IMG/VR virus record: IMGVR_UViG_3300014819_000010
Coordinates: 32,981 to 55,224 of that record
From: a virus
Direction: 5' to 3' (one strand)
DNA length: 22,244 nt
Shown: positions 6,727 through 20,681 of the stretch, in pieces
Layout: each line of letters opens with the position of its first letter
Position numbering within the stretch: position 1 is the stretch's first letter
Translations under genes and position numbers: made by a program
The notes under the pieces: model-generated
Seen by the model: only the letters and a program-made list of their open reading frames with translations
What the model was told of the DNA's origin: nothing
Database searches by the model: none

Positions 6727-7377
6727 TCAAGGCATTTTCTTGCCACTAGGCAAACGGAATTCCGATTCGATCTTAAAATCAACATGAAAGCTTGGAATTC
6801 CAATGTGATTAATTACGTTGTGCTTAAGAGCTTCATTTGCATCAAGGAACCAATCGGCGTGTTTCTTTTGATGTACGAGATCGAGGAAATAATCTTCCTT
6901 GTGACCACAGTTTTTGGCCATCATCTTAAATATGACTTCATTCAAGCGATCTGTTTCAACGGCATTAGCCTTTACTTCTTCGTTCTTGCCCCAATTCATG
7001 CTGGATACTTCGTGAATCATGACGGTCGAAGAGGGCGCACAAAAACGATATCCTTCGGCGCCGCAAGTAAGAAGCACTGCACCACAAGACATTGCTTTAC
7101 CTTCTACAATGGTTGCGACCTTAACTTTGCAAGCATTAATCATATCGACCATGGCAAGAAGAGAATATACTTCTCCACCATAGCTATCGATTATAATCGG
7201 CAAAATATCTTGTTTTGCTCGAACACAATGATCTTCTGCTGCTTCTAATTCTTCACAGAATTTGTTTGCTGTTTGTTCGGTAAAAGCTCCTGAGAATTTG
7301 ATATAGATTGGCAAATAACAAGCCGATTCAATATCTTTAACTCTAAGGCGTTCATCAACATTTACTGTATATCTCAT
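6727..7377 (-). CDS. ClpP-like serine protease
   Basis: The 216-residue product fits the ClpP/crotonase fold. It has IIIDSYGGEVYS (61-72), the nucleophile block KAMSCGAVLLTCG (Ser97), MIHEVSS with His122, and ADWFLDANEA with Asp175 at the catalytic Asp position, so the triad is intact. ClpP enzymes form barrel oligomers. Phage versions may work with host Clp ATPases or act as prohead maturation proteases, but no scaffold or capsid gene adjoins here. It is coupled by ATGA to the exonuclease gene. The Cys next to the nucleophile is an unusual residue there. Several Cys are present, consistent with a cytoplasmic enzyme. Confidence 0.93.
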   Translation of the reverse strand: MRYTVNVDERLRVKDIESACYLPIYIKFSGAFTEQTANKFCEELEAAEDHCVRAKQDILPIIIDSYGGEVYSLLAMVDMINACKVKVATIVEGKAMSCGAVLLTCGAEGYRFCAPSSTVMIHEVSSMNWGKNEEVKANAVETDRLNEVIFKMMAKNCGHKEDYFLDLVHQKKHADWFLDANEALKHNVINHIGIPSFHVDFKIESEFRLPSGKKMP

Positions 7378-7955
7378 ATATTGGTTCCTTTGATTAGATT
7401 TATCATATTACGTAATACTTTCAATGTAATTTCTGTATCATATTTCGATTCATGTCTTTTATTTTCATCAAATTCAATCATTAATGCATGAGCCATTTCT
7501 GATAAACTATAGGATTTTAGTTTTGGTACTATTCCAGAAAGAGCAAGAAATTTTCCAATTGATGCAGTGTCAATATGGCGGCGATCAAAATAACGATCCC
7601 AATCTTCTAATAAATGTGTTTTTGTAAACTTTACGTCAAAACGAACATTATGACCAACTGGTGTTAATTTTTGATTATATGACCATCCACAAATATAATT
7701 CTTAAAACTATTTCTAACTTCTGATAATGGTCTTGCAACTTTTTCATGTTCCATAATATTAATATGATTAACATTAATACCTTGAGCACTTAAATGATAT
7801 ACGCCATCATCAGGTTTTATTTTTAAATCGATTGTATCTAATATATTTAATTGATCGTCAAGAATATAACCATAAAGTGTTAGAAGACTCATTTCTTTAC
7901 TGATTCCACCAGTTTCCGTATCAAATAAGAAATATTTAGGATTATCTAATGCCAT
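7374..7955 (-). CDS. DnaQ-like DEDDh 3'-5' exonuclease
   Basis: The three exonuclease blocks are complete: FDTETGG (Asp12, Glu14), GHNVRFDVKF (Asp107) and HESKYD with His168 and Asp173, the DEDDh form. The length (193 aa) suits a standalone proofreading or RNase T/oligoribonuclease-like enzyme. Because a family-C polymerase, which normally lacks its own proofreading domain, is encoded in the same window, this could supply epsilon-like proofreading; that is inference. The ATG lies two bases beyond a 21-bp palindrome. A GAGG sequence is present but is buried in that palindrome and too close to the start for normal initiation. Confidence 0.93.
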   Translation of the reverse strand: MALDNPKYFLFDTETGGISKEMSLLTLYGYILDDQLNILDTIDLKIKPDDGVYHLSAQGINVNHINIMEHEKVARPLSEVRNSFKNYICGWSYNQKLTPVGHNVRFDVKFTKTHLLEDWDRYFDRRHIDTASIGKFLALSGIVPKLKSYSLSEMAHALMIEFDENKRHESKYDTEITLKVLRNMINLIKGTNI

Positions 7956-7957
7956 AC

Positions 7958-7988
7958 CTCAATACTAGTAGTATTGAGTTAAATTATA
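7958..7988 (-). promoter_or_regulatory. TATAAT box plus 21-bp palindrome at exonuclease start
   Basis: On the minus strand a perfect TATAAT (plus coordinates 7983-7988) lies about seven bases before a palindrome, CTCAATACTA-G-TAGTATTGAG (7958-7978). The predicted transcript would start at the palindrome, making a 5' terminal hairpin that ends two bases before the ATG and contains the GAGG ribosome site. It may be a DNA operator or an RNA switch controlling the exonuclease-ClpP pair. No convincing -35 box was found. Confidence 0.65.
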
Positions 7989-8049
7989 AAACGTTTTTTG
8001 TTTTGTGGAAGGCTACCAATTAGAAGAGGAGATAATTAAGTTATAACTC

Positions 8050-9531
8050 ATGACCATCAAAAAAACAAATCTCCAAAAATTATTAGAAGCTATGATGATG
8101 AATAACGCCGGTCCTAACTTCTATGGCAATCCATCATTTGGTGGCACTGGCAATTATGGTATGGGTGGATATACTCAACTAGCTCATTTTGGTCTTAATC
8201 CTGCTACAGAAGCTATGGCAGAACAAGAACAAGAAGAACTTGAACAAAACATAGAAGATCAAGAGTGGATTAATAACAAATATCGTAGGGGATTTGGGTT
8301 TAATGCAGATGAAGATCCGATACCACATTGGAATGGTAGAAATGGAACGGTAGAAACTGTTGCTGAAAGTGCTCCATATGACAATTCAGTTTCTCGTATG
8401 AGAGATTTACCTGGATTTCCTGCTCCTAATACTCTCGTAGAGCCAAAACAATATACACCATTGAATGCGGGAGCAGATTACGAAAATCCAATTGATGGTC
8501 GAAAAGTAGAATATTTGGGTCCAACAATCAATGGAGTCGCCATGGATGATAATACCGGTAATTCTTCAGCTATGGCATTACAACTGTCTGAAAAAGAAGA
8601 GTTAATTGGCAAAAGAATTAAAAAACTTAAAAAGCCGATTACAAAAAAGTTGGACAAGCTTATTGGACCAGATCCAGATATATCATCAGCCACAGAACAT
8701 GAAACAGATACAAAAGATTTAATTTTATATGATTATATCAAAACGCTAGTTTCTGAATATCTTGAAGAAATATTAGGTGCGCCAAAAGCTACAACCCCAG
8801 ATCGTGTTGGTTGGAATAATACCAGAACAAATTCATTAGCTGCTTGGAGAAATCATATTAATCCAGAAGAACCACCAACCGAAACATGGCGTCCACAGTT
8901 TGGAGAAAATCCAGAACAAAATCCTCCAATGATATATGATCCTCCACAAAGAAGTCCATTAGGCGGATTTGGTTCAATCGGTTGGCCAAAACAATTTGTT
9001 CCAGCAGACTATGAAGCTACTCATGGTGGTGAAGAAGGTTTTGGTGAAGATTTATTAGGCGCAAGAAGATTAAGACAATCTCCTACAGATGATGATCGTG
9101 TTGGAGTTAATGCAAGTATAAGAGAGGCACGTATGAAACAATTAGAAGCCCTATTAGAATATCTTTTAAGTGAAGAAGCTTGTGATGAAGATATGGAAGA
9201 GAAGTTTGCTTCACAAGCACAACGACGTTTCTTCTATGCAAAAGCCGGAGAGGGCGGCAAAGAAGGAAAAAAATGGAAGCGTATGGCTCGTGAGTTTGAA
9301 CAAGAAACACCAAAAGGTGAAAAACTTCCGAAAAAAGTAAATGAAGCTTTAATTGAGGAAGTTTTAGAAGAGGGAGAGAATGAACCTACAAATAAAGCTC
9401 TATGGTCCAGGGCTCAAGCTTGGGCAAGATCAAAATATGATGTTCATCCCAGCGCCTATAGTAATTCCGCTGCGGCTAAATGGTATAAGAGTAAAGGTGG
9501 AGGCTGGCGTAAGAAAGGTAAGAAAAAATGA
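8050..9531 (+). CDS. Modular putative virion protein (493 aa)
   Basis: An in-frame stop just upstream fixes the start at or after the ATG at 8050, although AGGAG is about 18 bases away, too far for ordinary use. The product opens with an amphipathic MTIKKTNLQKLLEAMM, then a Gly/Asn-rich region, a long low-complexity Pro/Asn middle and two compact basic modules near the end. The first, about residues 390-425, has SQAQRRFFYAKAG and ETPKGEKLPKKV. The second, about 445-490, has LWSRAQAWARSKYD, HPSAYSN and AKWYKSKGGGW. I recall such modules in many unrelated phage proteins, without a known function. The next gene overlaps by ATGA, suggesting joint production. Virion location is inference. Confidence 0.88.
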   Translation: MTIKKTNLQKLLEAMMMNNAGPNFYGNPSFGGTGNYGMGGYTQLAHFGLNPATEAMAEQEQEELEQNIEDQEWINNKYRRGFGFNADEDPIPHWNGRNGTVETVAESAPYDNSVSRMRDLPGFPAPNTLVEPKQYTPLNAGADYENPIDGRKVEYLGPTINGVAMDDNTGNSSAMALQLSEKEELIGKRIKKLKKPITKKLDKLIGPDPDISSATEHETDTKDLILYDYIKTLVSEYLEEILGAPKATTPDRVGWNNTRTNSLAAWRNHINPEEPPTETWRPQFGENPEQNPPMIYDPPQRSPLGGFGSIGWPKQFVPADYEATHGGEEGFGEDLLGARRLRQSPTDDDRVGVNASIREARMKQLEALLEYLLSEEACDEDMEEKFASQAQRRFFYAKAGEGGKEGKKWKRMAREFEQETPKGEKLPKKVNEALIEEVLEEGENEPTNKALWSRAQAWARSKYDVHPSAYSNSAAAKWYKSKGGGWRKKGKKK

Positions 9532-10721
9532 ACGAAGACTTACGCAAATGGTTTAAAGAAAAGTGGAAGGATATTAGCCGTAAAGATAAAAGCGGTAAAC
9601 ATCCCCCATGTGGCGCTTCTGCTGATAAAGGTGTAAGAGCAAAGGATAGCTCACGTAAATATCCAAAATGTGTTCCAGCAAACAAGGCTAAAAATATGAG
9701 CAAAAAAGAAAAACAAAGTGCGGTAAGAAGAAAGCGCCGTGCTCCAAATGAGCCAGGTTCTCCAGATAACGTTAAAACTGATGTTAAAAAAGAAAACTGG
9801 GAAAAATGGCATCCTTCTAAAAAGGAAGTTTATCCAGAGGGAATTCCAAGTAACAATGCACCAGAAAATGAAAAACCTATGGGTGGCGCCGTTGCTTTCG
9901 AAAAAAATCGAAAAGAAGTGTTAAGTCACTTACAAGAAGTCATTAATGATATCGTCGAGTCTATTTTGCTTGAAACTACTGTAGCTCCTCGTAGGAGACA
10001 AAAGGTTGCAGCTTCTCAAACGCCATCGAATATCGATATCAATGCATTAAAATCTATACTCGATAAGGAAACACGAGATAACAATGATATTAATAATATA
10101 ATCGATTATATGCGAGGTAAAGATATTAATGCATTTAGTTCGGACTTTAAGAGTTTGTCAGATAAACAAATAGCCACGTTAGAAACTGTTATTGTTCAAA
10201 ATGTAAATCCGGAGTCTAAAATATATCCGGAATTATATAATAAAATTGAGTTTGCTATAGGTCAAAAACATTTAGCTAAATTAGCTGTTCAGGAAGTTCC
10301 TACAACTAAAGGATCACCAGCGCAAAAAAAACAAACATCAAAAGACGTGACAAAAACTGTTGAAATACTAAAATCTGAAGAAGTTAGAAAAGCAATTGAG
10401 GAATTGATGAGAAAGATGAAAGCTGCTGGATATTCTTCGATGGACATGTCAAAAAGACTAGCTGACTTGGGAGATTTTATTAACACAGATTTTGGTCCGG
10501 GAGCGGCTGCTTCACAAATTCGTGGTATTAATTTGGCAAATCTTGGAGCTCCACAAATATCACCAGCAGAAAAAAACATATTTGGAAAAGTTAAAAGTTT
10601 TTTTGGTTTAAATGAAAACGAAACAAAACAATTAATGGAAAAATATGAAATACATACAGAAAAAGATTTAGATATCTTGATAGAAGCGGTAGCTCAACTA
10701 GTTCTAAAGGAAGGTAAATGA
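9528..10721 (+). CDS. Putative virion protein with Cys-containing basic N-terminal module (397 aa)
   Basis: The start overlaps the previous stop (ATGA). Residues 1-75 form a strongly basic module: LRKWFKEKWKDISRK, HPPCGAS, KYPKCVPANKA and SAVRRKRRAP. It is a recurrent but functionally unknown phage module with two conserved Cys, possibly nucleic-acid-binding. An amphipathic helix follows (VLSHLQEVINDIVESILLE), then a long helical body with a Gln/Lys linker, KSEEVRKAIEELMRKMKAAG, and an acidic end (ILIEAVAQLVLKEG). No catalytic motif is visible. Shared features with the preceding protein suggest that both go into the same particle or assembly intermediate. Confidence 0.88.
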   Translation: MNEDLRKWFKEKWKDISRKDKSGKHPPCGASADKGVRAKDSSRKYPKCVPANKAKNMSKKEKQSAVRRKRRAPNEPGSPDNVKTDVKKENWEKWHPSKKEVYPEGIPSNNAPENEKPMGGAVAFEKNRKEVLSHLQEVINDIVESILLETTVAPRRRQKVAASQTPSNIDINALKSILDKETRDNNDINNIIDYMRGKDINAFSSDFKSLSDKQIATLETVIVQNVNPESKIYPELYNKIEFAIGQKHLAKLAVQEVPTTKGSPAQKKQTSKDVTKTVEILKSEEVRKAIEELMRKMKAAGYSSMDMSKRLADLGDFINTDFGPGAAASQIRGINLANLGAPQISPAEKNIFGKVKSFFGLNENETKQLMEKYEIHTEKDLDILIEAVAQLVLKEGK

Positions 10722-10722
10722 C

Positions 10723-11211
10723 ATGTCTGATGATTGGGAATCAAGGTATTGGGCCAAACGAGCTGAACAAATACGTCAACAACGATATCAACAACCTACA
10801 CGTACTCAAGTACCTGAAGTAGACGTAGCATCGGTCCTTATGCAAAGAGCTATGACCGGTCAACAAACTCAAAATGGTGGAGCACCAGTATATCTACGTG
10901 AAGGTACGAATTATTATCGTCAAATACAAAATAATGATGGATTTGGTACAACTACTCCCCTAATCAAAAGTATGGGACCATTAAATGGTGTTAATGGTAA
11001 AGAGTTTGCTATAATGGGAGAGATACGAGCCTACTGTGTAGACAACCTATCCACAATAGATTTATCTAAAATCAATCAGGAGCCAGAAAGAATGCTTGAT
11101 TTGGTAAGAGTCAGAGCACCATTCGTTGGAGATTTATTAGTTGAACGTACTGCTATTGTAAATGATGGAATTAATAGAACTTATGGTGGTAAAACATTAT
11201 TAAAAGGTTGA
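10723..11211 (+). CDS. Hypothetical protein (162 aa)
   Basis: The ATG lies one base after the preceding stop. The first 40 residues are Gln/Arg/Tyr-rich (YWAKRAEQIRQQRYQQP) and appear flexible. The rest looks folded, with YLREGTNYYRQI, GKEFAIMGEIRAY and VGDLLVERTAIV, suggesting beta structure. No family is recognised. Its place between virion-like genes and the phospholipase makes a late or structural role plausible, but nothing specific supports it. Confidence 0.85.
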   Translation: MSDDWESRYWAKRAEQIRQQRYQQPTRTQVPEVDVASVLMQRAMTGQQTQNGGAPVYLREGTNYYRQIQNNDGFGTTTPLIKSMGPLNGVNGKEFAIMGEIRAYCVDNLSTIDLSKINQEPERMLDLVRVRAPFVGDLLVERTAIVNDGINRTYGGKTLLKG

Positions 11212-11219
11212 GGTGATAT

Positions 11220-12116
11220 ATGATGAAGAGATCGCTTGTATTGTCTGGTGGAGGAAGTCGAGGAAGTTATCAAGTTGGTGCAATACAGGCATTATTAGAG
11301 GGTGGCAGAACATGGAATAGTATTCATGGTATATCTGTTGGTACTCTTAATGGATCTTGGTTAGCTATGCATTCACAATACGAGCAACCGCAATGTATAC
11401 ATGGATTATTAGATATCTGGAATAATATTAATAATACCGATGATATCTTTACACGTTGGAATCCAATTAAACCGGTTAATTATCTTTATTCAATGTGGAA
11501 GGGATCCTTACACAGTGGTCAACCCTTAGAACGGTTAGTTGATAAATTTTTAGATATATCTAGATTAAAAAATAGCGGTGTTAAATTTACTATAGGTTGC
11601 GTAAATCTAAATTCATCTGAATATGTTGTTTTAGATCAAACTAGCGAAAATATGAAAGCTTTTATATTAGCTAGCAGTCATTTGCCTCTTGTTTTTGAAC
11701 CAATCGATATATATGGAGAACGTTGGGTTGATGGAGGAATTCGACATCAAATACCGATATTGGAAGCACTTAAAGAACGGCCAGATGAAATTGATGTTAT
11801 TCTCACTTCTCCAATTACAACACGTGATCGTATATTGCCTGCTACCAACCTCACTAGCGCCCCCAGAGTGGCTTTAAGAGCTTCTGAAATAATGAGCGAT
11901 CAGATTTATCTTATGGATTGCTACACCGTCCTACGAGCCGCCAGAACGCTAGAAAACGTAAAGATTAATGTATATATACCAAGCATATCCCCAAATCAAA
12001 ACAGCATGGATTTTAATAAAGAAAATATCCAAGCCGGAATAAAGCTTGGATACGATGAAACGCTAGCTAAATTAATGCAAAAGATCGATATCGATGATTC
12101 AGATTTAGATTTTTAA
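11220..12116 (+). CDS. Patatin-like phospholipase
   Basis: GAGGTGATAT precedes two in-frame ATGs (11220 and 11223); either could be used. The product has the patatin oxyanion-hole loop SGGGSRGSYQVG (9-20), nucleophile elbow GISVG (Ser39) and catalytic Asp in VDGGIRHQIP (Asp171), giving the Ser-Asp dyad. Patatins hydrolyse acyl chains from membrane lipids. In a phage this might aid lysis, exit or membrane remodelling; alternatively it may be injected or carried in the virion, as its neighbours suggest. There is no signal peptide, so delivery would rely on the virion or holin. The gene closes the plus-strand operon. Confidence 0.93.
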   Translation: MMKRSLVLSGGGSRGSYQVGAIQALLEGGRTWNSIHGISVGTLNGSWLAMHSQYEQPQCIHGLLDIWNNINNTDDIFTRWNPIKPVNYLYSMWKGSLHSGQPLERLVDKFLDISRLKNSGVKFTIGCVNLNSSEYVVLDQTSENMKAFILASSHLPLVFEPIDIYGERWVDGGIRHQIPILEALKERPDEIDVILTSPITTRDRILPATNLTSAPRVALRASEIMSDQIYLMDCYTVLRAARTLENVKINVYIPSISPNQNSMDFNKENIQAGIKLGYDETLAKLMQKIDIDDSDLDF

Positions 12117-12120
12117 AACA

Positions 12121-12150
12121 AAAAACCCCGGCATGAGCCAGGGTTCTTTT
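12121..12150. terminator. Bidirectional terminator with one mismatch
   Basis: AACCCCGGC and GCCAGGGTT (12124-12132 with 12137-12145) pair around an ATGA loop, with one internal mismatch. A-tract and T-tract flanks serve both the phospholipase operon and the minus-strand gene ending at 12168. Confidence 0.85.
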
Positions 12151-12167
12151 ATATTGTTTTTTATCGA

Positions 12168-13241
12168 TCACAATCGCCAGCCACCACCATAATAAGCACG
12201 ACGCCGAATATTGGGATAGCGACGAGCCGTCGATTGACGATTGTAAAGACCTTCCGGAGTAGTAGCGGTACTATCCGTCTTACGAACCTCACCAAAGATA
12301 TTGCTAGCCCGAGCGATATCCAGAACCCGATCAAGCTGGGCGAGCGTGAAAGACCACGTGCGGTTAACCGCATCATAGCTACGCTCATTAGCCGGGATGG
12401 TCTTAAGCTGGGACATAAAGCCCATCATATTAGCATCCCGAACCCACGGAAACTTAACAACAAAATCCTGAGTGCGAACGGTAGCCACAAAGGCATGAAC
12501 CGGAGTGGTAGAAGCAGCCGCACGCTCCGCCAGCACCGGATTGCAGGCAACCCACGCAGCAGCCTCATTAGCAATGGCAACGATATCACCCTCATACATC
12601 GGCCAGAAACGGCGAACGTTGGCGAGAAAGGCAGTAGCCTCAGTAGCAGGGGCAGAGTAAGGCGAGCGATCACCACGATTACGGGGAGTAACGATACCGG
12701 GGATCTGGCGCATAGCAGCCCAACCCGACTTATTACCAAGCCCGCTCATGTACACCCGACCGTTTTCAAGCCAAACACGGCTGGGCGACGTAGAAGCCTG
12801 ACCGGAGATAACAGCCGCAAGACCGACGTAACCGCAAGCGTTGATAATATCAATCATAGTGTTACGGACAGAACGACCGGGATTAGCATACGAGCAGATA
12901 AGATCGCAAGCTCGAACAACCTCACGGAGATCCGCACCGGTTCTACGCATGATCGTGGCATCGTCGGTGAGGTTAGCAACTTTCTCAGCCGCCTTAAGAA
13001 GCCGCTTAAGAGCGGCTTTCCAATCCTGACGAACCTCCGATGCAAGATCAGTCTCAACGACGCTCATGGCACGGATGGTAGCAATACCAAAATTCGCCGC
13101 AATGGTCTTGGCATAAAGATGCGTGTCCTTACGACGACAAATTGGGCCGACGCCACATTCACGGCTAGCAGGATCAGTGAGTGAATCTCCACAACGAGAG
13201 CAGAAACGAGCGGTGTTATCGGTATGAAGTAGATTTCGCAT
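12168..13241 (-). CDS. Zinc-ribbon and HARP-like domain protein (357 aa)
   Basis: Residues 14-36 form a four-Cys site, FCSRCGDSLTDP then ECGVGPICRRK, like the phage zinc motif I associate with DUF6011. Near the end (about 260-312) lie FPWVRDANMMGFMSQLKTIP and YDAVNRTWSF, which resemble the HARP domain of SMARCAL1-type annealing helicases, a fold that recognises DNA forks; here there is no helicase domain. The middle is helical without motif. The end is Arg/Tyr-rich (YPNIRRRAYYGGGW). A DNA-structure-binding protein is a reasonable inference. The gene is much richer in GC than its surroundings and has no Shine-Dalgarno. A palindrome lies just upstream. Confidence 0.85.
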   Translation of the reverse strand: MRNLLHTDNTARFCSRCGDSLTDPASRECGVGPICRRKDTHLYAKTIAANFGIATIRAMSVVETDLASEVRQDWKAALKRLLKAAEKVANLTDDATIMRRTGADLREVVRACDLICSYANPGRSVRNTMIDIINACGYVGLAAVISGQASTSPSRVWLENGRVYMSGLGNKSGWAAMRQIPGIVTPRNRGDRSPYSAPATEATAFLANVRRFWPMYEGDIVAIANEAAAWVACNPVLAERAAASTTPVHAFVATVRTQDFVVKFPWVRDANMMGFMSQLKTIPANERSYDAVNRTWSFTLAQLDRVLDIARASNIFGEVRKTDSTATTPEGLYNRQSTARRYPNIRRRAYYGGGWRL

Positions 13242-13244
13242 TTG

Positions 13245-13258
13245 TTCTATTAATAGAA
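13245..13258 (-). promoter_or_regulatory. 14-bp palindrome at the promoter of the zinc/HARP gene
   Basis: TTCTATTAATAGAA is its own reverse complement and ends four bases before the ATG. On the minus strand TTGAAT, a 17-base spacer and TATTCT lie over it, so a repressor bound here would block initiation. Neither box is a full consensus match. Confidence 0.5.
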
Positions 13259-13288
13259 TAACAGTTCAATAGACAATATTCAAGTAAT

Positions 13289-13311
13289 AAAAAACCCCGG
13301 ATTACCGGGGT
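13289..13311 (-). terminator. Intrinsic terminator for the 13316-13624 gene
   Basis: On the minus strand ACCCCGG, a 4-base loop and CCGGGGT are followed by six T, only five bases after the stop at 13316. The same CCCCGG-type core recurs at 1556. Confidence 0.88.
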
Positions 13312-13315
13312 ATTT

Positions 13316-13624
13316 TCATCGTCTGCGAAGGGGTTGAACTTTTTGTTTCGCTTTCCAGAGATAACTAGCACAGGTTGCTGGTACTATGAATTCAATTTCT
13401 GGTTTTTCAGTTAAAGAAAAAATCCAAGCTTTATCTTCGCCTCGTGGGCCACCTTCAATGTCCCTAAGATACTGAATAAACGTACCATTTTCAATTCGTG
13501 TAACAGCATGGGAGGATCCTACTACCGGCATACAAGGCAAATAACGTACACCGGGAATATCATGCACGTTAACTTGACGTTGTTCCTTCCAGTAAAAGAT
13601 CGGCAATTCTGTTTGTTTAGCCAT
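13316..13624 (-). CDS. Hypothetical protein (102 aa)
   Basis: The ATG is directly downstream of a near-consensus promoter with only five bases between -10 box and start, and no Shine-Dalgarno is present, so a leaderless message is predicted. The product looks beta-rich (LPIFYWKEQRQVNV, RYLPCMPVVG, IEFIVPATCASYLW) and ends in a basic KAKQKVQPLRRR tail. No family is recognised. It forms its own unit with a promoter and a terminator. Confidence 0.85.
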   Translation of the reverse strand: MAKQTELPIFYWKEQRQVNVHDIPGVRYLPCMPVVGSSHAVTRIENGTFIQYLRDIEGGPRGEDKAWIFSLTEKPEIEFIVPATCASYLWKAKQKVQPLRRR

Positions 13625-13629
13625 AATTT

Positions 13630-13658
13630 ATTATAACACGTTATAACAATAATATCAA
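13630..13658 (-). promoter_or_regulatory. Near-consensus sigma70 promoter producing a leaderless mRNA
   Basis: On the minus strand TTGATA (13653-13658), a 17-base spacer and TATAAT (13630-13635) stand five bases before the ATG at 13624. The expected start site is the A of ATG. It is the best promoter in the window and lies in a 38-base gap. Confidence 0.82.
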
Positions 13659-13662
13659 GAGA

Positions 13663-14136
13663 TTAAGCTGTTGGTGGAGTGGCAGGAGCAGCCGGTGCTG
13701 GAGGCATAGCTGGTTGAGCGGCAGGAGTGGCGGGCGGGACTGCGGAAGCTTCTGGAGCGGCTTCTTGTTCATTGACATTAATAACGATTTTACCGATTTC
13801 AACGAGAAACGTTTCGATTGCTTGTTTTTGTTCATCGGTTTGTTTTTTGAAGAATGTTACGAGTTGACCATAGACTTCTGGGTCTGTAAATGATCTACCG
13901 CCACGAATAACATTAAGACGTTCAATCATGTCATCAACGGTAAATTCTTTTGGTTGTTCTTCTGGTGCTGATGGTGCAGATACATCAGCAGGAGGAGTCA
14001 TTGGTGCGGGCATACCTGCTGGAGCGGCTGGCGCTTCTTGTTCAGAAAGCAATTGTACAATTGCTTCGTTGATTAAATCATGAAGATATTTTTTTCTACG
14101 AGTTTCGTTTAATTCTTGACGAATTGATGTTGACAT
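13663..14136 (-). CDS. Putative virion protein with Pro/Ala-rich linkers (157 aa)
   Basis: CGAGGT precedes the ATG. The first 32 residues form an amphipathic helix (RRKKYLHDLINEAIVQLLSE) followed by an Ala/Pro-rich linker. A compact helical domain follows at about 65-120 (FTVDDMIERLNVIRGG, VYGQLVTFFKK, IETFLVEIGKIV), and a second long Ala/Pro tail ends the protein. The arrangement of helix, linker, small domain and linker resembles those encoded at 18810-20681. No catalytic residue pattern is visible. Virion association is inference. Confidence 0.88.
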   Translation of the reverse strand: MSTSIRQELNETRRKKYLHDLINEAIVQLLSEQEAPAAPAGMPAPMTPPADVSAPSAPEEQPKEFTVDDMIERLNVIRGGRSFTDPEVYGQLVTFFKKQTDEQKQAIETFLVEIGKIVINVNEQEAAPEASAVPPATPAAQPAMPPAPAAPATPPTA

Positions 14137-14163
14137 AAATTACCTCGAAATCTAATTAGTTGC

Positions 14164-14793
14164 TTAATATATTCTGACGCAAATCAGATTACAAATTGGA
14201 CGATTATTTTCAATTCGATAATTCATAGCTTTAATGCGATACATAAATTTGTTTTCATTGATAAGATTTACTTGAATATTGTTGAATTGTGTACGTCCAT
14301 ATAATCCAAGTATAACAACATCATTACGTTTAAGTTTTTTACGACGCCGGGGTCGTGTCCCCTTCGCCGCAAAAAGTTCTTTCCAAAGTTGCAAGCGCCG
14401 TTTTCTTTTTTGTTCTGAGCCATGTTTTTGATCAATAAAAAATGTTAACAACTTTAATAATTTGACCGGTGAGTCGGCGCTTACATTAATTTCTAATGTA
14501 TCACTTTCTGAATCCAAATTATTTGATTGAATATTGACGATATGACAATTCATGCTAAATTTAGCATTTGTTTGTGTTGCTTTAAGCTGCAAAGTATATC
14601 GGATACCATCTTCAACTAGTGATTTAGTTCGAAGAGATTGCGTAATTGATTTTTCTGATTCTTCCAATAAATCATCTAGCTCTTTTAGAGCCGCAATTCT
14701 TTTTGCTTTTTCATTATACGTATCTTCTGTGTCAATGAGACTTTTTGGGTCTAGAACTACATCAGGTACATCACTAGTTATTATATTACTCAT
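14164..14793 (-). CDS. Hypothetical protein (209 aa)
   Basis: The start overlaps the preceding stop (ATGA). The first 65 residues are acidic and helical (NEKAKRIAALKELDDLLEE). A beta-rich middle follows (YTLQLKATQTN, MNCHIVNIQS, TLEINVSA). A very basic patch lies near residue 150 (GTRPRRRKKLKRND), then a beta-rich C-terminus (VVILGLYGRT, CNLICVRIY). The basic patch suggests contact with nucleic acid or an acidic partner. No family is recognised; an assembly or baseplate-type role is possible but unsupported. Confidence 0.85.
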   Translation of the reverse strand: MSNIITSDVPDVVLDPKSLIDTEDTYNEKAKRIAALKELDDLLEESEKSITQSLRTKSLVEDGIRYTLQLKATQTNAKFSMNCHIVNIQSNNLDSESDTLEINVSADSPVKLLKLLTFFIDQKHGSEQKRKRRLQLWKELFAAKGTRPRRRKKLKRNDVVILGLYGRTQFNNIQVNLINENKFMYRIKAMNYRIENNRPICNLICVRIY

Positions 14794-15110
14794 TTTATTT
14801 CTATTTTCGAAAATATTTCTTCAATATTTAAGACTATTTTATAACATTCTTTAATATGTTGTTTACCATTTTCAGATTGAACTTTGCATGTAACATATGC
14901 AAAGTCTTCATCTTGTTTTTCTTCTAGAAAGATAAAGATATCATGACCATGTTTCATATTCAGTATATCAACAGTTAGATATCCATATTCTTCGGCCAAT
15001 ATTTTTATTGGCCGTCTAAAAACAAAAAGAACCGGACCTACCGCACGGGTAGACCAGTTCTCTGGAAATAATTTATATAGTGGATGATTTAGTAATTCTG
15101 GATCTGGCAT
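14790..15110 (-). CDS. Hypothetical protein (106 aa)
   Basis: A TTG two codons earlier is open, but the ATG at 15110 lies two bases after the upstream stop and is the better start. The product begins MPDPELLNHPLYKLFP and continues with strands (VGPVLFVFRRPIKI, YLTVDILNM, DIFIFLEEK, FAYVTCKVQ) and a final helix (CYKIVLNIEEIFSKI). It is likely a small alpha/beta fold. No family is recognised. Tight spacing with both neighbours indicates one operon with the sigma-like gene upstream. Confidence 0.82.
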   Translation of the reverse strand: MPDPELLNHPLYKLFPENWSTRAVGPVLFVFRRPIKILAEEYGYLTVDILNMKHGHDIFIFLEEKQDEDFAYVTCKVQSENGKQHIKECYKIVLNIEEIFSKIEIK

Positions 15111-15112
15111 AA

Positions 15113-15886
15113 TCAATTCTCATTCTTCCTAGGACGCCCACGCTTCTTACTTGGGTAAAGATGCTTGCTCAACATCGTTTGAAAACTCTTCATTCGATTA
15201 TTCTGCTTAAGGATATCTCCACGAAGATATGCAGAAATTTCTGTTGCATCTTGCTTCATGAGGAACTTAATCATTTCAAGTTCGCCTGTGGTCTTGATAT
15301 CATGCATTTCCAGTGGAGTAATCTGATATGCCTTCTGGATCGCATCTAGAAACATATTAATGTTATTACAGGAGATTAGAAGAGTCGCATATGCATCAGC
15401 GACAACTTGATGAGCGGCGCTAATACGATCCATGGCAGCATCCATGCCATCACGATGGCGACCGGTCATAAGCTGCATCTTGGCAGTTCCAGACGTTTCA
15501 AGCTTAAGTGCCATCATGGCAGTAATACCATGAAGTTCTTGTCCAATCTCTTTAAGAGATACATCGCCGGTATTATAGATTGCTTCCTTCTTGCCCTTTA
15601 CGGGCTTTGTTGGGCTTTCAAAATCGATCTGAGCGAAATCACTCTTAAGGGACTTCTTGATAGCCCAATCATCACATACGTCCGCAGGAGAAAGCGGGAA
15701 ACCACTACGGGGATCGGAAATATATGCCAAAACATTTTCAACAGAAACATTCGGATTATACCATGCGGTATTCTTTCGATTATCGTTGAAATAATAACTC
15801 ATAATCCACTCGCAAAGCTTCGTACGATCTCGAAGGCGAGCGAAAAGAGGATTGACATTATCCGGATTAATCTTCATGTTATTCAT
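15113..15886 (-). CDS. Sigma-region-4-like HTH protein with AT-hook
   Basis: A TTG is open one codon further out, but GGAG six bases before the ATG at 15886 favours that start (257 aa). Residues 108-135 read DVSLKEIGQELHGITAMMAL, which matches the helix-turn-helix of sigma70 region 4 (consensus LxEIGxxLxGIT, contacting the -35 box). The C-terminus, KKRGRPRKN, is an AT-hook that binds the DNA minor groove. No clear region 2 is visible; the N-terminal third (LCEWIMSYYFN) is unfamiliar. It could be a divergent phage sigma or a late-transcription adapter. A strong-looking promoter precedes it. The operon continues with three unknown or virion-like genes. Confidence 0.82.
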   Translation of the reverse strand: MNNMKINPDNVNPLFARLRDRTKLCEWIMSYYFNDNRKNTAWYNPNVSVENVLAYISDPRSGFPLSPADVCDDWAIKKSLKSDFAQIDFESPTKPVKGKKEAIYNTGDVSLKEIGQELHGITAMMALKLETSGTAKMQLMTGRHRDGMDAAMDRISAAHQVVADAYATLLISCNNINMFLDAIQKAYQITPLEMHDIKTTGELEMIKFLMKQDATEISAYLRGDILKQNNRMKSFQTMLSKHLYPSKKRGRPRKNEN

Positions 15887-15917
15887 CAATGACTCCAGGG
15901 TGACAACAATTAATATT

Positions 15918-15946
15918 ATTATCTCATATCAGGAGTTCAAATTCAA
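15918..15946 (-). promoter_or_regulatory. Promoter for the sigma-like gene operon
   Basis: On the minus strand TTGAAT (15941-15946), a 17-base spacer and GATAAT (15918-15923) give ideal spacing. The start would be near 15911, leaving about 25 bases of leader that include the GGAG ribosome site. Confidence 0.72.
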
Positions 15947-15968
15947 GGGATTAAAATTGCCACATTTT

Positions 15969-16853
15969 TCAGAAGAATTTGCGTACAAGAGAAGGTCTAC
16001 CGGCAGTTTCTTTTGCTCTTAATGCATCTGTGAAGCGAGCAATAACTGGAAGTTGTGAGCCACGAAGATATAATCTAATAAGTTCTGCTGCTGCTTCTTC
16101 TTCTGCACCTTCTTCAGCCATAGCTTGAAGGTCAACTAATAGTTCAATATCACGTTCTGTTGCTCTTGGCATTTTAAGAACGTCCATTACGAAATCTTCA
16201 ACGCCTTTTTCTGCAAGACGTTCAATAAACTGTTTAGCTGCTGGAACTGCCAAAGCTTTTAGACTTTCTTTTGATTCAAGACCTCCTCTAGATACGGCGG
16301 CTTTCTTAAAACGTTCCATAGCTTTCTTTTCTAGTTCTGCGGCTCTTTGTACAGATACACCAAGTTCTTTAGCAATATCTTCAAGAGATGCTCCACCTGT
16401 CATTCCTTTTGTTTGATATTTCTTACCAGTCTCTTCTTCCTCTACATCAGCTTCTTCTTTTTCTGATGGAGTTTCTTCACTACCAAGAGCTGCTTTTGTT
16501 GCACCAGTATTATTAATAAGATCCTTAAGCTTATTTGGAGTCATGGCAGAATAACCAAGAATTGATTTTCCATTAAGTCCATCAACATAAAATTTATCTA
16601 GAATAGTCTTTAAATCTTCTCTTGAAGTACGACCTTGAAGCATATTAAGATAACGTTTTTGATCTGGAGATATATCGCCTTCAGTTTGACGAGCTAACAT
16701 TTTAAGTACCGCTTCTGCATTCCTTAAATTTGTTGCAGAAATAAGAGCAGCAGCTTGTTCACGACGCTGGCTGCTACGTCCTTGTTGTGCTTTAATTTCT
16801 TCATTTGCAGCCTCTGCAATTAAACTTTTTAATTTTTTCATTGTTATTTTCAT
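15969..16853 (-). CDS. MKIT-type putative virion protein with sigma-like HTH (294 aa)
   Basis: The frame is open from a TTG at 16859, but the ATG at 16853, two bases after the upstream stop, gives the N-terminus MKITMKKLKSLIAEA, an amphipathic helix start that recurs in putative phage virion proteins. An Arg/Ala-rich helical region (about 25-110) and an acidic linker (125-142) follow. Residues 155-185 (ASLEDIAKELGVSVQRAAEL, then EKKAMERFKK) closely resemble sigma70 region 4. The C-terminal helices (FIERLAEKGVEDFV, ELLVDLQAMAEEGA) end in a basic tail (GRPSLVRKFF). No region 2 is seen. The combination suggests a packaged DNA-binding or transcription factor, but either half could mislead. Confidence 0.85.
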   Translation of the reverse strand: MKITMKKLKSLIAEAANEEIKAQQGRSSQRREQAAALISATNLRNAEAVLKMLARQTEGDISPDQKRYLNMLQGRTSREDLKTILDKFYVDGLNGKSILGYSAMTPNKLKDLINNTGATKAALGSEETPSEKEEADVEEEETGKKYQTKGMTGGASLEDIAKELGVSVQRAAELEKKAMERFKKAAVSRGGLESKESLKALAVPAAKQFIERLAEKGVEDFVMDVLKMPRATERDIELLVDLQAMAEEGAEEEAAAELIRLYLRGSQLPVIARFTDALRAKETAGRPSLVRKFF

Positions 16854-16855
16854 GA

Positions 16856-17131
16856 TCAATCTTCAGCTTTCTCTTCAGATGATGGGGGAGGAATTGATGG
16901 GGTACCCGAAGTATTGCCTTTTTCAGCCCATCTACGGCCAAAGTACAAAACCGTCAGTGGTGTTAGATAACTCATTGCTTCTGTGCCGGAAAATTCTCTT
17001 ATTTTCAATCCAAAAGCTTCTTCTACAATCGAAACAAGAAGCCATAAAGTTACCACAGCATATCCTATTACCATCATAGTAAATGAAGCAGATTTTTTTC
17101 CATCACTTTGTTTTAAAAGAGGTACTTGCAT
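16856..17131 (-). CDS. Small membrane protein, holin candidate (91 aa)
   Basis: AAAGGAT precedes the ATG. One clear membrane helix spans residues about 17-38 (FTMMVIGYAVVTLWLLVSIV) and a shorter hydrophobic segment at about 53-65 (AMSYLTPLTVLYFG) leads into RRWAEKG. The C-terminal tail is hydrophilic with Pro/Ser/Glu. Size, two hydrophobic segments and position next to the spanin-like genes suit a holin, which would permeabilise the inner membrane to start lysis. No endolysin is in the window, and other small membrane roles are possible. Confidence 0.8.
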   Translation of the reverse strand: MQVPLLKQSDGKKSASFTMMVIGYAVVTLWLLVSIVEEAFGLKIREFSGTEAMSYLTPLTVLYFGRRWAEKGNTSGTPSIPPPSSEEKAED

Positions 17132-17152
17132 ATCAATCCTTTTTATTAAGTA

Positions 17153-17728
17153 TTAATTTCCAGCAACAAATCCCATGAGGAAGCCACCAATAACTCCAAC
17201 TAGTAAACCACCAGCACCAACTAATACAGCAGCCCATGGAAATTCCGAGCCACGATTAACAATTGTTTCATTCATTCTCATTAATCTAGCGATCTCTGTA
17301 TCTCTTGCCTCTATAATAAGACGAAAACGAATGCGATCAGCATTAATTTGCAATCTCAAATCTTCCATCTCGGTTCTTAATCTTAAATCATAAGCAGTTC
17401 TCATGCTTTCCATGGATACTGCTACACGCTGTTGATAAGCTTCTAACTCAGCTATAATATAAGCTGCTTGTTCATTTGAAAAGAAAACACCTGGATATGG
17501 CGCCACAAATTCTTGATTTAACGTTAATGCAAATGGTGCTGGAGTAGGAGTTGGATTAGGCTCAATTGCGGGCACTACAACAGCTTCTATAGGCGCTAAC
17601 TCAATAGGAGGCATATCTGGGAAACCATGATCATCTACAGCGGTTGTAGAGCCTCCTGGGCGATTTGTTGTAGTACATCCAAACAATATGAAAATCATTA
17701 AAAAAGAAGATATTAGTTTTTTACTCAT
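17153..17728 (-). CDS. Lipoprotein with C-terminal membrane segment, spanin-like
   Basis: The N-terminus (MSKKLISSFLMIFILFGC) is a lipoprotein signal with acylated Cys18. A Pro/Ala-rich periplasmic stretch follows, then a long coiled coil (about 85-155, AELEAYQQRVAVSMESM and LRLQINADRIRFRL), and a final Gly-rich membrane helix (163-191, VLVGAGGLLVGVIGGFLMGF). Lipid anchor, coiled coil and C-terminal membrane helix together are the plan of a unimolecular spanin such as T1 gp11, which fuses outer and inner membranes at lysis. It is coupled by ATGA to an inner-membrane spanin-like gene, unexpected for a true u-spanin. It could alternatively be an outer spanin with an unusual tail. Confidence 0.83.
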   Translation of the reverse strand: MSKKLISSFLMIFILFGCTTTNRPGGSTTAVDDHGFPDMPPIELAPIEAVVVPAIEPNPTPTPAPFALTLNQEFVAPYPGVFFSNEQAAYIIAELEAYQQRVAVSMESMRTAYDLRLRTEMEDLRLQINADRIRFRLIIEARDTEIARLMRMNETIVNRGSEFPWAAVLVGAGGLLVGVIGGFLMGFVAGN

Positions 17729-18147
17729 GGTGTTGACCTTCCAAATCCGAATGTTCTGTTATAGCTATTAACCAATTCCGAAGGATTATTTACTAGTTCT
17801 GTTGTTCTAGCGCCACGATTTCTACGAATTCGATCTATTTGAGTTTGAAGATCAGAACGTATCTCTTCCATTCTTCTTTCATAATCATTTCTGAGAGCTT
17901 CACGGGCTTCTCTTTCATCATTAACAGTTTTATTTAAATTATCAATCGTCTCATGATTTGCTATGATAGCAGTATTTTGTTCTTTAATCAAAGTAGACAT
18001 AACAGAATTTGCTTTATCTATCTGATTTATTCTTTCATAAATAAAGAAACTGGCTACCGCCACTCCTACAATGAGTAGTAATGATAGCCAGTTATTCTCA
18101 AAAAATGATTTAATACCTTTGTTGGTGTTTATAACGTTATTTTCCAT
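17725..18147 (-). CDS. Inner-membrane coiled-coil protein, i-spanin-like (140 aa)
   Basis: One N-terminal membrane helix (residues about 20-37, WLSLLLIVGVAVASFFIY) is followed by a coiled coil of roughly 70 residues (IDNLNKTVNDEREAREALRN, then DYERRMEEIRSDLQTQIDRI) and a short polar tail. This is the topology of lambda Rz-type inner spanins: inner-membrane anchor with a periplasmic rod. The next gene overlaps by ATGA and encodes a lipoprotein, as in many Rz/Rz1 pairs. No sequence-level Rz identity is claimed; the call rests on topology and order. Confidence 0.8.
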   Translation of the reverse strand: MENNVINTNKGIKSFFENNWLSLLLIVGVAVASFFIYERINQIDKANSVMSTLIKEQNTAIIANHETIDNLNKTVNDEREAREALRNDYERRMEEIRSDLQTQIDRIRRNRGARTTELVNNPSELVNSYNRTFGFGRSTP

Positions 18148-18148
18148 A

Positions 18149-18505
18149 TCAATTTATATATTTTTTTTCTTTGGATGATTCTTCATCTTCAGATTCATCT
18201 TCATCTTTACGTATACTAGTTGCATTTAAATTTTCATATGCAAAAGCCATTTCTTCTAATGATGTATTAATTTCTCTTATTGCATCAGACTGTTTGCAAA
18301 CAATATTTGTTTGAATTTCAATTTTTTGTGCGAGAAAGGTAATAACTAATTCTAAATTTTCAATTTTTTCTAATAATACTTGATTATCAAACTGTTTTAA
18401 TCGATTTGTTAATTCTTCAGAATTTTCAGTGGTTACTGATAAGATTTTAACTGTTTCTTTTGTTTCTGATTTAACACCCAACCATTTTAACAAATTTTTA
18501 AACAT
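18149..18505 (-). CDS. Coiled-coil hypothetical protein (118 aa)
   Basis: GAGGAAG precedes the ATG. The basic N-terminus (MFKNLLKWLGVK) gives way to a long coiled coil (about 30-95, ELTNRLKQFDNQVLLEKIEN, then LELVITFLAQKIEIQTN) and an acidic tail (DEDESEDEESSKEKK). There is no signal peptide or strong membrane helix. The gene ends one base before the i-spanin-like gene, so it belongs to the same operon. No family is recognised; an accessory lysis or virion rod is possible but unproved. Confidence 0.82.
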   Translation of the reverse strand: MFKNLLKWLGVKSETKETVKILSVTTENSEELTNRLKQFDNQVLLEKIENLELVITFLAQKIEIQTNIVCKQSDAIREINTSLEEMAFAYENLNATSIRKDEDESEDEESSKEKKYIN

Positions 18506-18512
18506 AACTTCC

Positions 18513-18806
18513 TCATTTCTTAGATAATTCGTGAGCTATCATGCGATATAAAGTTTCAGCATCAACGTGTTCTTCTTTGCCCTCCAATATTCTTTGTTTT
18601 TTATATTCAGTAGCTTCTTGTAATATTTCTACCAATCTTTGATCATTAATCGATATTTGTTGAATGACATAACCCATAAATTGATGAGCAGTTAAACCAT
18701 GACGAAATAAGACCTTTTTTAAATTTAGCATTTCTTCCTGAGTAAATTGCAATTCTAATGCTTCTTTCGGAAGAATCTTTTTTGGTCGTCCTGGTCCACG
18801 TTTCAT
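18513..18806 (-). CDS. AT-hook protein (97 aa)
   Basis: The N-terminus MKRGPGRPKK is an AT-hook (GRP core), which binds the minor groove of AT-rich DNA. The remaining 80 residues are helical (QEEMLNLKKVLFRHGLTAHQ, EILQEATEYKKQRI, ETLYRMIAHELSKK) and include LTAHQFMGYVIQ, which resembles a ribbon-helix-helix or small HTH dimer unit. The ribosome site GGAGGAG lies inside the Gly-rich coding end of the upstream virion-like gene. Probable DNA-binding or regulatory protein; it might also coat DNA. Confidence 0.82.
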   Translation of the reverse strand: MKRGPGRPKKILPKEALELQFTQEEMLNLKKVLFRHGLTAHQFMGYVIQQISINDQRLVEILQEATEYKKQRILEGKEEHVDAETLYRMIAHELSKK

Positions 18807-18809
18807 TTT

Positions 18810-19685
18810 TCAATCTCCTCCACCTCCACCAAGCTGTCCTCCTTCGCCACCAGCATTATATGCATATGGAGTTGGGAATTCTCCTCCTCCAGCAGTAGAA
18901 GTGTATTCCGTGTTCGTAGGATGCAATCCATAATTTCGTTCCATAATCTGCAAAAACATTTTAGCAGTTCTTTCATCATAGTTTGTTCGCATATATTCTT
19001 CAACACGATTTAGTATAATTGAACGTGGATTTAGTAATGCATCGTAATTGTTAATTAATCGTGCAATGCTTCTAGTAAAATCATTTAAGTTAATTTTTGG
19101 TGTGTTAACTATCGGTGGTCCTTCTGGTGCAGTACCACCACCTGCATCTCCTGCATCATCTGTATCTCCACCCACATCACCACCCAGATCGGCTGCACCA
19201 GCATCTTCGGCAGGTTCTTCTGGCGGAGTTTCTTGTTCAAAGAGCAAGCTTTTTAGTTTAAGCAATTGCTTTTCTTCTAATGATGTTGGTGTAGATTGTT
19301 GAGCTAATGTTTCGGGGGCTGGAGATGCTGCTGGAGTAGGAGCAGGACCAGGCATACCAGTTTGCGGTATACTTTCACGCTCGTAACGAACGATATAACG
19401 ATCAATTACTTGATCTAGAGAAACGTTTTTTTGTGGAACCGGAGCAAAATCGGCCATTTGTTGTGGATATTGAGCTTGAACTACTTGTTCTTTTAAAACT
19501 AAATCCTTATTGCGAGCAACATATAATAGATTATTAATACGAACATATGAATGTTGTTTGTCAATAAGACGCACGTGCTCATATAGGGTTCCAGCAGGAA
19601 TACTTACAGGACGATTTGAACGTGTGGTATAACCAAGCTTGCCGCCGTGGCGAACCATTAATGCATTTGTTTTTAACTTTTTCAT
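18810..19685 (-). CDS. Putative virion protein with Pro/Gly-rich linkers (291 aa)
   Basis: GAGGATGATAT precedes the ATG. An N-terminal beta-rich domain (about 1-75, YTTRSNRPVSIPAGTLYEHV and HSYVRINNLLYV) is followed by a Pro/Ala linker. Then comes LLKLKSLLFEQETPPEEP, the same amphipathic helix plus LxEQE pattern as the 157-aa protein. A Gly/Asp-rich stretch and a helical C-terminal domain (FTRSIARLINNYDALLNP, MFLQIMERNYGL) follow, ending in Gly repeats. No catalytic motif is visible. Composition and layout suggest a virion component; the exact part is unknown. Confidence 0.87.
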   Translation of the reverse strand: MKKLKTNALMVRHGGKLGYTTRSNRPVSIPAGTLYEHVRLIDKQHSYVRINNLLYVARNKDLVLKEQVVQAQYPQQMADFAPVPQKNVSLDQVIDRYIVRYERESIPQTGMPGPAPTPAASPAPETLAQQSTPTSLEEKQLLKLKSLLFEQETPPEEPAEDAGAADLGGDVGGDTDDAGDAGGGTAPEGPPIVNTPKINLNDFTRSIARLINNYDALLNPRSIILNRVEEYMRTNYDERTAKMFLQIMERNYGLHPTNTEYTSTAGGGEFPTPYAYNAGGEGGQLGGGGGD

Positions 19686-19688
19686 ATA

Positions 19689-20681
19689 TCATCCTCTAGA
19701 TTGGACGCCAGGTGCTTGTGTTGCTGGAGCGGCGGGCGCCGATGGTGAAAGTGGAGTTGTTGCTTGATTACCTAAACCGGTTGTTAATGGTTTTTGTGCC
19801 GGAGGTTGTATTTGCGTAATTGGAACTGTTTCTGCTCTCTCAGCAGCAGAAAGCATTGAATCTGGTTTTGGATTATTCATAGGTTCAATTTTATATATCA
19901 AATCTAGATTACATTTTTCACATACCATCATACGAGCTTCAATAACATCCCAATTTAATTCTTTCATCATCGAAAAAAGATAAGCTTTTTTATCTGTCAT
20001 ATAATCTTTAAAATAAGCATGTTCCCACATGTCCATAACAATAACCGGTATACAGCCAACAGGAATGTTAGTGTCATGACTATCAATTGATACGTTCATA
20101 AAAACATTACGATAGGGTTCCCATACAGTTAATCCCCAACCATTACGAGAAGCCATACATGCTGCCATGAAATCTTCTTGCCAAGCTTCAAATGTACCCC
20201 AATCTCTTGATAGTCTCATGTATGGTAAACTATCAACTCGAATCTCACTATCGACATCTGAAATATTTGCGAAATATAATTCATGAAGTTTTACTCCATT
20301 GAAATTATATGTCTCATCTACTTTAAGAGAGCGATATGAACTGGCACTGCTTTTAACTTCATTTTTGTCCGCTGCAACAAGACCACTTGCAACTTTATTA
20401 AATGCTTCTACATATCCCTTATAAAGTTTATCATGAGAACTTTTTGTTCCATCAGATAATTTTTCAGTTTTCATTAAATGGGACTTGGGTATAAGTGTAA
20501 ACCCTTCTTTAAGGGTATTGATCAATTTTTTTGCCGCATTTGACAATATTGTAACCGGCTGTACAGCTTCTGATATTTTTTTAGGTTTCTCTGGTGCTAA
20601 TCCTTTGGCTTCAAGCGTATTCTTTACTGCTCTCTTCACTTCATCATCTAAAAGGGATTGCAATTCTTTTGTTAATTTCAT
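19689..20681 (-). CDS. Fe/Mn superoxide-dismutase-fold protein with extra termini (330 aa)
   Basis: Residues about 60-250 follow the Fe/Mn-SOD pattern. DMWEHAYFKDY (217-227) is the family signature with ligands Asp217 and His221; GTFEAWQEDF (162-171), GWGLTVW (181-187) and INW-like ELNWDV (241-246) also fit; KLHELYFANI gives a further ligand, His133. The first helical ligand seems lost: in SSHDKLYKGYVEAFN the usual His position aligns to Ser82, with His one residue later. Extras are an MKLTKELQSLLDDEVKRAVK helix, a VCEKC pair (253-257) and a Pro/Ala-rich tail. SODs convert superoxide to peroxide and oxygen; here a non-enzymatic or virion-bound role is equally likely. The neighbouring genes are virion-like. 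Confidence 0.88.
   Translation of the reverse strand: MKLTKELQSLLDDEVKRAVKNTLEAKGLAPEKPKKISEAVQPVTILSNAAKKLINTLKEGFTLIPKSHLMKTEKLSDGTKSSHDKLYKGYVEAFNKVASGLVAADKNEVKSSASSYRSLKVDETYNFNGVKLHELYFANISDVDSEIRVDSLPYMRLSRDWGTFEAWQEDFMAACMASRNGWGLTVWEPYRNVFMNVSIDSHDTNIPVGCIPVIVMDMWEHAYFKDYMTDKKAYLFSMMKELNWDVIEARMMVCEKCNLDLIYKIEPMNNPKPDSMLSAAERAETVPITQIQPPAQKPLTTGLGNQATTPLSPSAPAAPATQAPGVQSRG

Follow-up and report, generated by a model that had tools for sequence, protein, structure and literature searches.

Do the proteins encoded between 8.0 and 20.7 kb of this phage DNA carry a common signal, and does that signal direct them to the virus particle? The window, by which we mean the whole 22,244-nucleotide stretch analysed, comprises bases 32,981-55,224 of a 55,224-base virus record and represents part of an uncultured phage whose replication genes are of the T4 type. 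The record also encodes a single-strand DNA-binding protein, UvsX, a dUTPase and an exonuclease. The genes of the block are without assigned function, except for a Fe/Mn superoxide dismutase (SOD) domain in the protein starting at 20681. A preliminary description of this DNA had proposed that the proteins starting at 8050, 16853 and 20681 share a lysine-rich amphipathic N-terminus, that those starting at 14136, 19685 and 9528 hold internal L-x-E-Q/T sites, and that both represent a particle-targeting or T4-like processing signal; the six open reading frames and the sequences quoted from them are all present as given there (Table 1). We favor, with a probability of roughly three in four, the reading that the tags are capsid-targeting, protease-cut propeptides of the T4 kind, in which docking, cleavage, packaging and injection would proceed by analogy with T4.

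Table 1. Predicted features of the window and of the adjoining part of the record; an arrow marks the predicted cut
Feature	Position	Strand	Evidence
493-aa protein, weak tag-like N-terminus MTIKKTNLQKLLE↓A	8050..9531	+	orthologues MTKKTNLQKLLEY
397-aa protein, internal ILLE149↓T	9528..10721	+	orthologues VLAE↓Q at equivalent place
157-aa protein, LINE↓A and LLSE32↓QE near N-terminus	13663..14136	-	orthologues ILSEQD, ILSEQE
294-aa protein, clearest N-terminal tag of the window, MKITMKKLKSLIAE↓A	15969..16853	-	profile score 17.0
Tag of 16853 protein, residues 1-22, predicted targeting helix and E14 site	16788..16853	-	profile score, orthologues
291-aa protein, internal LLFE150↓QE between variable linkers and conserved C-terminal domain	18810..19685	-	7/7 homologues
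LLFE↓QE site of 19685 protein, residues 142-152	19230..19262	-	conservation, motif count
330-aa Fe/Mn superoxide dismutase-like protein, predicted 59-residue N-terminal propeptide	19689..20681	-	PF02777, 1.1e-19
Predicted propeptide of 20681 protein, residues 1-59, ending LKE59↓G, ISE↓A inside	20505..20681	-	E59 invariance, model
Two tagged genes just outside the window	record 13410-13790, 14986-15333	-	MKIT(V/I)(K/G)QLKQLIREQVEE

Outside these features, the window holds two further reading frames that can be named by motif. That at 28-1089 resembles an intein with a homing endonuclease-like part (LTGLIRSDGTW, then an HNC junction) whose host gene may be an actin-like ATPase, and in G004 it has a single 707-aa version. 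That at 11220-12116, near the 9528 and 10723 genes, appears patatin-like (GGGSRGSYQVG, GISVG).

Among the N-termini of the window, that of the 16853 protein, MKITMKKLKSLIAEA, is a member of a large N-terminal tag family (MKITKRQLRRIIKEE...). When every N-terminus was scored with a 13-column profile built from tagged proteins of other phages only, it alone in the window was clearly significant (p about 1e-4), and its orthologues start MKISINELKSLIAE↓A and MKISMNELKTLIRE↓A. The N-termini at 8050 (score -0.4, p 0.013) and 20681 (score -3.7, p 0.035) were not significant after correction for 65 genes. The proposal of one shared N-terminal motif thus stands for 16853 and not for the other two, and a single tag common to all six window proteins is ruled out by the profile scores at 8050 and 20681. 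Two short genes that lie close beyond the window reach 31.4 and 26.9, and taken together the scores in and beside the window indicate that the tag family is real and has one sure member inside the window. In the clade to which the window belongs (G000, G001 and G047-G050), a dozen distinct small proteins carry MK(I/V)(T/S)xxQLK(Q/K/H)(L/I)IRE↓Q. The 16853 protein itself shows a weak match to sigma-70 region 4 (20.2 bits against a cut-off of 24.1); its predicted model, built from 4 sequences with a pLDDT of 51.8, was set aside as too poor. A homologue in G004 (9365-10528, L038) has tandem copies of the tag, at residue 1 and at about residue 36.

Resemblance between amphipathic helices could in principle arise by chance, and for the N-termini at 8050 and 20681, which are not significant alone, this may be partly true. 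For the tag family as a whole chance is refuted, and we give it hardly any weight: the reversed pattern has no matches in 30 records where the true pattern hits 12, the sites are conserved across relatives, and the tag is largely restricted to N-termini, occurring at 44 predicted N-termini and 4 internal places in the first nine records read (333,509 residues). The exact pattern yielded at least 120 matches in viral contigs, whereas bacterial and archaeal genomes totalling 257 Gb gave 8 matching stretches. Dozens of tagged genes are found in relatives of the window, and in two phages of ~300 kb the tagged proteins number about 33 and 44, with a function known for hardly any of them. In the literature searched we found none of six common tag forms, nor anything on tags of such a kind in uncultured phages.

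Tandem runs of tagged genes (G009, 1-10 kb; G042c5, 184-193 kb) would also fit a single family by descent, in which the N-terminus is the slowly changing part of proteins that have otherwise diverged beyond recognition. We regard this as improbable, as the bodies behind the tag have different known folds, among them AAA/zeta-toxin-like kinases, an HD hydrolase, an exonuclease and a sigma-like domain. Tag conservation ends after about residue 22; across 86 tagged proteins mean column identity is 5%, with the consensus MKITKxQLRxIIxEE and nothing common beyond. Tags are moreover exchanged on related bodies. A second class, M(N/K)xLREYIRxLLxE↓A (class II), occurs in the same genomes as the MKIT-type class I, and homologous bodies are found with a class I tag, a class II tag or none; one small protein begins MKIT... 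in G008, G009, G010 and G025, but MKHLREYIRQILLE in G042c5. Likewise, an orthologue of the 19685 protein (L016) adjoins the SOD gene and starts with an MRIT tag, whereas the window copy has internal sites. Of the 375 genes of G042c5 we counted 35 with class I tags and about 9 with class II tags; for the 369 genes of G025 the counts are 27 and about 6. A few of the class II entries are membrane proteins with an accidental match, and a few of those in class I resemble class II. The contig G042c5 (NHDW01000006.1, G042 contig 5; 305,838 bases), binned with a Methylococcaceae genome, has the appearance of a large T4-type phage and encodes gp21.

The internal sites proposed for the other three proteins were borne out, both by their number and by their conservation. 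In the 8.0-20.7 kb block there are 10 matches to [LI][LI]xE[AGSQT] (2.0 expected), a total reached by none of 500 shuffles, and in the rest of the record there are 8, with 6.1 expected (p 0.27). Relatives keep the Glu and the preceding hydrophobic residues of LLFE↓Q, LLSE↓Q and ILLE↓T, with only Gln or Thr following, while the surrounding linkers vary. Thus LLFEQE of the 19685 protein is [LIF][LI][FSL]E-Q in 7/7 homologues, down to 32-37% identity, and SILLETT of the 9528 protein, whose N-terminal domain corresponds to PHROG 23735, is EVLAEQT in orthologues. The C-terminal domain of the 14136 protein is common to G008, G010, G017 and G042c5.

The SOD-like protein at 20681 presents a different case. 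It matches PDB 1coj (1.7e-35), and its predicted model, with a TM score of 0.90 to that structure, has a helix at residues 5-25, a low-confidence linker at about 30-59 and the SOD fold thereafter. The site LLDDE, suggested in the preliminary description, is rejected: the site conserved in 15 homologues is LKE59↓G. In their alignment E59 is the sole invariant residue among the first 70, always within (L/I/V)xE followed by A, G or S, and the stretch upstream differs greatly among them in both length and sequence. The window copy has retained, according to the alignment, the three His and one Asp metal ligands. Homologues in L019 (10001-10675), L020 (10001-10600) and L021 (10001-10762) have lost most or all of them, D-x-W-E-H reading SVQDR, RVDEI and DVSEG, respectively, which suggests that the SOD fold is retained there without the enzyme. 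The homologue in the distant phage PA5oct, annotated ESI-MS/MS, begins MNDSIKKYISIAE↓A; in that phage N-terminal LxE sites show a weak enrichment, short of significance, in mass-spectrometry-annotated proteins (13/93 against 20/263 others, p 0.09), the annotated set including metabolic enzymes.

Is the tag cut, or does it serve as a docking helix that stays in place? The tag is strongly basic and amphipathic, and cleavage is deduced from sequence, so that it might be an uncut docking helix or an address to somewhere else (DNA, a membrane, another phage compartment), with the LxE ends reflecting helix composition. We consider this unlikely on account of the specificity of the sites. Within the tag, residue 12 is Ile in 94%, Leu in 3% and Val in 2%, and residue 14 is Glu in 92%. 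Between residues 18 and 25, 51% of the tagged proteins have a second Leu/Ile-x-Glu, compared with 9.8% for control windows, a 5-fold enrichment in a set of 474 mechanically found reading frames, some possibly spurious, for whose selection the second site was not used. Only Glu is enriched there, Asp being no more frequent than elsewhere (5.9% against 11%); offset -2 is the strongest (51%, the next offset reaching 31%), and the following residue is A, G, Q or S in 45% of cases compared with 22% elsewhere. Composition of a helix that is never cut would equally leave unexplained why E59 of the SOD-like protein is conserved and its propeptide is not, and why the ends of capsid propeptides match the tag site.

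The latter observation connects the tags, as putative propeptides, to head maturation. The prohead protease gp21 (PF03420, Peptidase_S77) is encoded in 14 of the 16 tagged records of at least 99 kb that the pattern scan yielded, and in all 11 tagged records above 150 kb. The converse does not hold: among phages with a related ribonucleotide reductase gp21 is often present without the MKIT tag. In G008, G009, G010, G014, G018 and G025 the propeptide of the capsid protein gp23 ends in (I/V)L(R/K)E↓A or ↓Q, which matches the T4 cut position LTE65↓A, and the LRE↓Q end fits the Gln after Glu at the sites of the window. In many phages the head module contains, shortly after gp21, a gene with the tag-like start MAK(V/M/I)xRxxLKxLVKECLxEILxE↓(A/G). 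Two large phages each have two tandem gp23 genes (G018, 139350-142938; G025, 176509-180120). A cultured relative, Flavobacterium phage immuto (L245), has L-x-E propeptides of its own on head genes and on small genes upstream (NFDLKKFLVENKLTTNSKILKE and others; positions 684-1154, 7131-8431 and 13078-16367), and none on the genes annotated as tail sheath, tube and fibre.

If the signal is addressed to the head, it ought to be more frequent there than in proteins outside the virion, and the counts agree with this. The tag occurs on none of 84 replication or metabolism homologues and none of 12 sheath homologues. N-terminal LxE[AGSQ] sites are found in 9/16 head proteins (portal, protease and capsid), in 1/96 replication, metabolism and sheath proteins and in 344/1832 others, which form the unassigned class; the single site, in a replication or metabolism homologue (1/84), is read as chance, and the tail control is small because it consists of sheath only (n=12).

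The interpretation as a particle-targeting or T4-like processing signal is therefore supported in part, and almost all of the indirect tests agree with it. In its favor are the co-occurrence with gp21, the same site in gp23, the tagged gene near gp21 in the head module, the lack of tags on replication and metabolism proteins, and a homologue of the 20681 protein annotated by mass spectrometry. It is weakened since the three N-termini are not one motif, the site first named at 20681 differs from the conserved one, the PA5oct comparison gave p 0.09, and gp21, gp23 and portal genes are found neither in the record of the window nor in its closest relatives, all of which are fragments. On the capsid-targeting reading, a basic amphipathic helix, at the N-terminus or within a linker, would dock the protein onto the prohead core, and a gp21-type prohead protease would cut after Leu/Ile-x-Glu, with Ala, Gly, Ser or Gln next. 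This cut would free the body inside the head, where it would stay with the DNA and probably be delivered into the host.

The model for this route is T4. There, gp21 cuts after L/I-x-E, internal proteins bear propeptides of 10-19 residues, and Asp at the cut blocks processing and not targeting (PMC9026906). Three T4 internal proteins carry a capsid-targeting tag, and two were shown in 2025 to block distinct GmrSD defence enzymes, one having been known earlier (PMC12373910). Our tags resemble the propeptides of IPI, IPII, IPIII and Alt in being short and N-terminal and in ending in Leu/Ile-x-Glu followed by Ala, in standing before unrelated bodies, and in that tagged relatives encode a gp21-type protease and a gp23-type capsid. 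They differ in sequence, MKITKRQLRRIIKEE against MKTYQEFIAE in T4, and residue by residue the MKIT tag does not match that of T4 (score -19.9). They further differ in having two or more classes per genome, often with a second site at residues 18-25, and in the number of tagged proteins, which are few in T4. A second comparison is offered by giant phages of the SPN3US type, in which several head proteins likewise have propeptides removed by a prohead protease. In SPN3US, however, the protease (gp245) cuts after A-x-E, the propeptides mostly have 111-254 residues, and PMC10052503 describes no shared short tag; this kind of site is rejected for our tags by the composition of residue 12. With regard to putative cargo, the 20681 protein shares its fold and metal-ligand positions with the Aquifex pyrophilus Fe/Mn SOD (1coj). 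It differs from the latter by a predicted N-terminal propeptide and a C-terminal tail, and by the loss of metal ligands in some phage homologues. What is new compared with T4 capsid targeting is the scale and the exchangeable tag classes, in a group known here from environmental sequence only.

Because the tag is most likely an address to the head, it marks out a set of candidates for injection into the host. The broader proposition, that a clade of uncultured phages of the T4 superfamily uses a few exchangeable N-terminal tags to load into the head as much as about a tenth of its proteins, making the particle an injector of effectors, we hold to be evenly balanced between true and false. If true, the cargo would include kinases, HD hydrolases, exonucleases, a superoxide dismutase and a sigma-like factor, amounting to dozens of effectors that could be read from sequence. 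With such a packaging rule, unnamed phage genes by the hundred would become candidate injected factors, acting in counter-defence or takeover.
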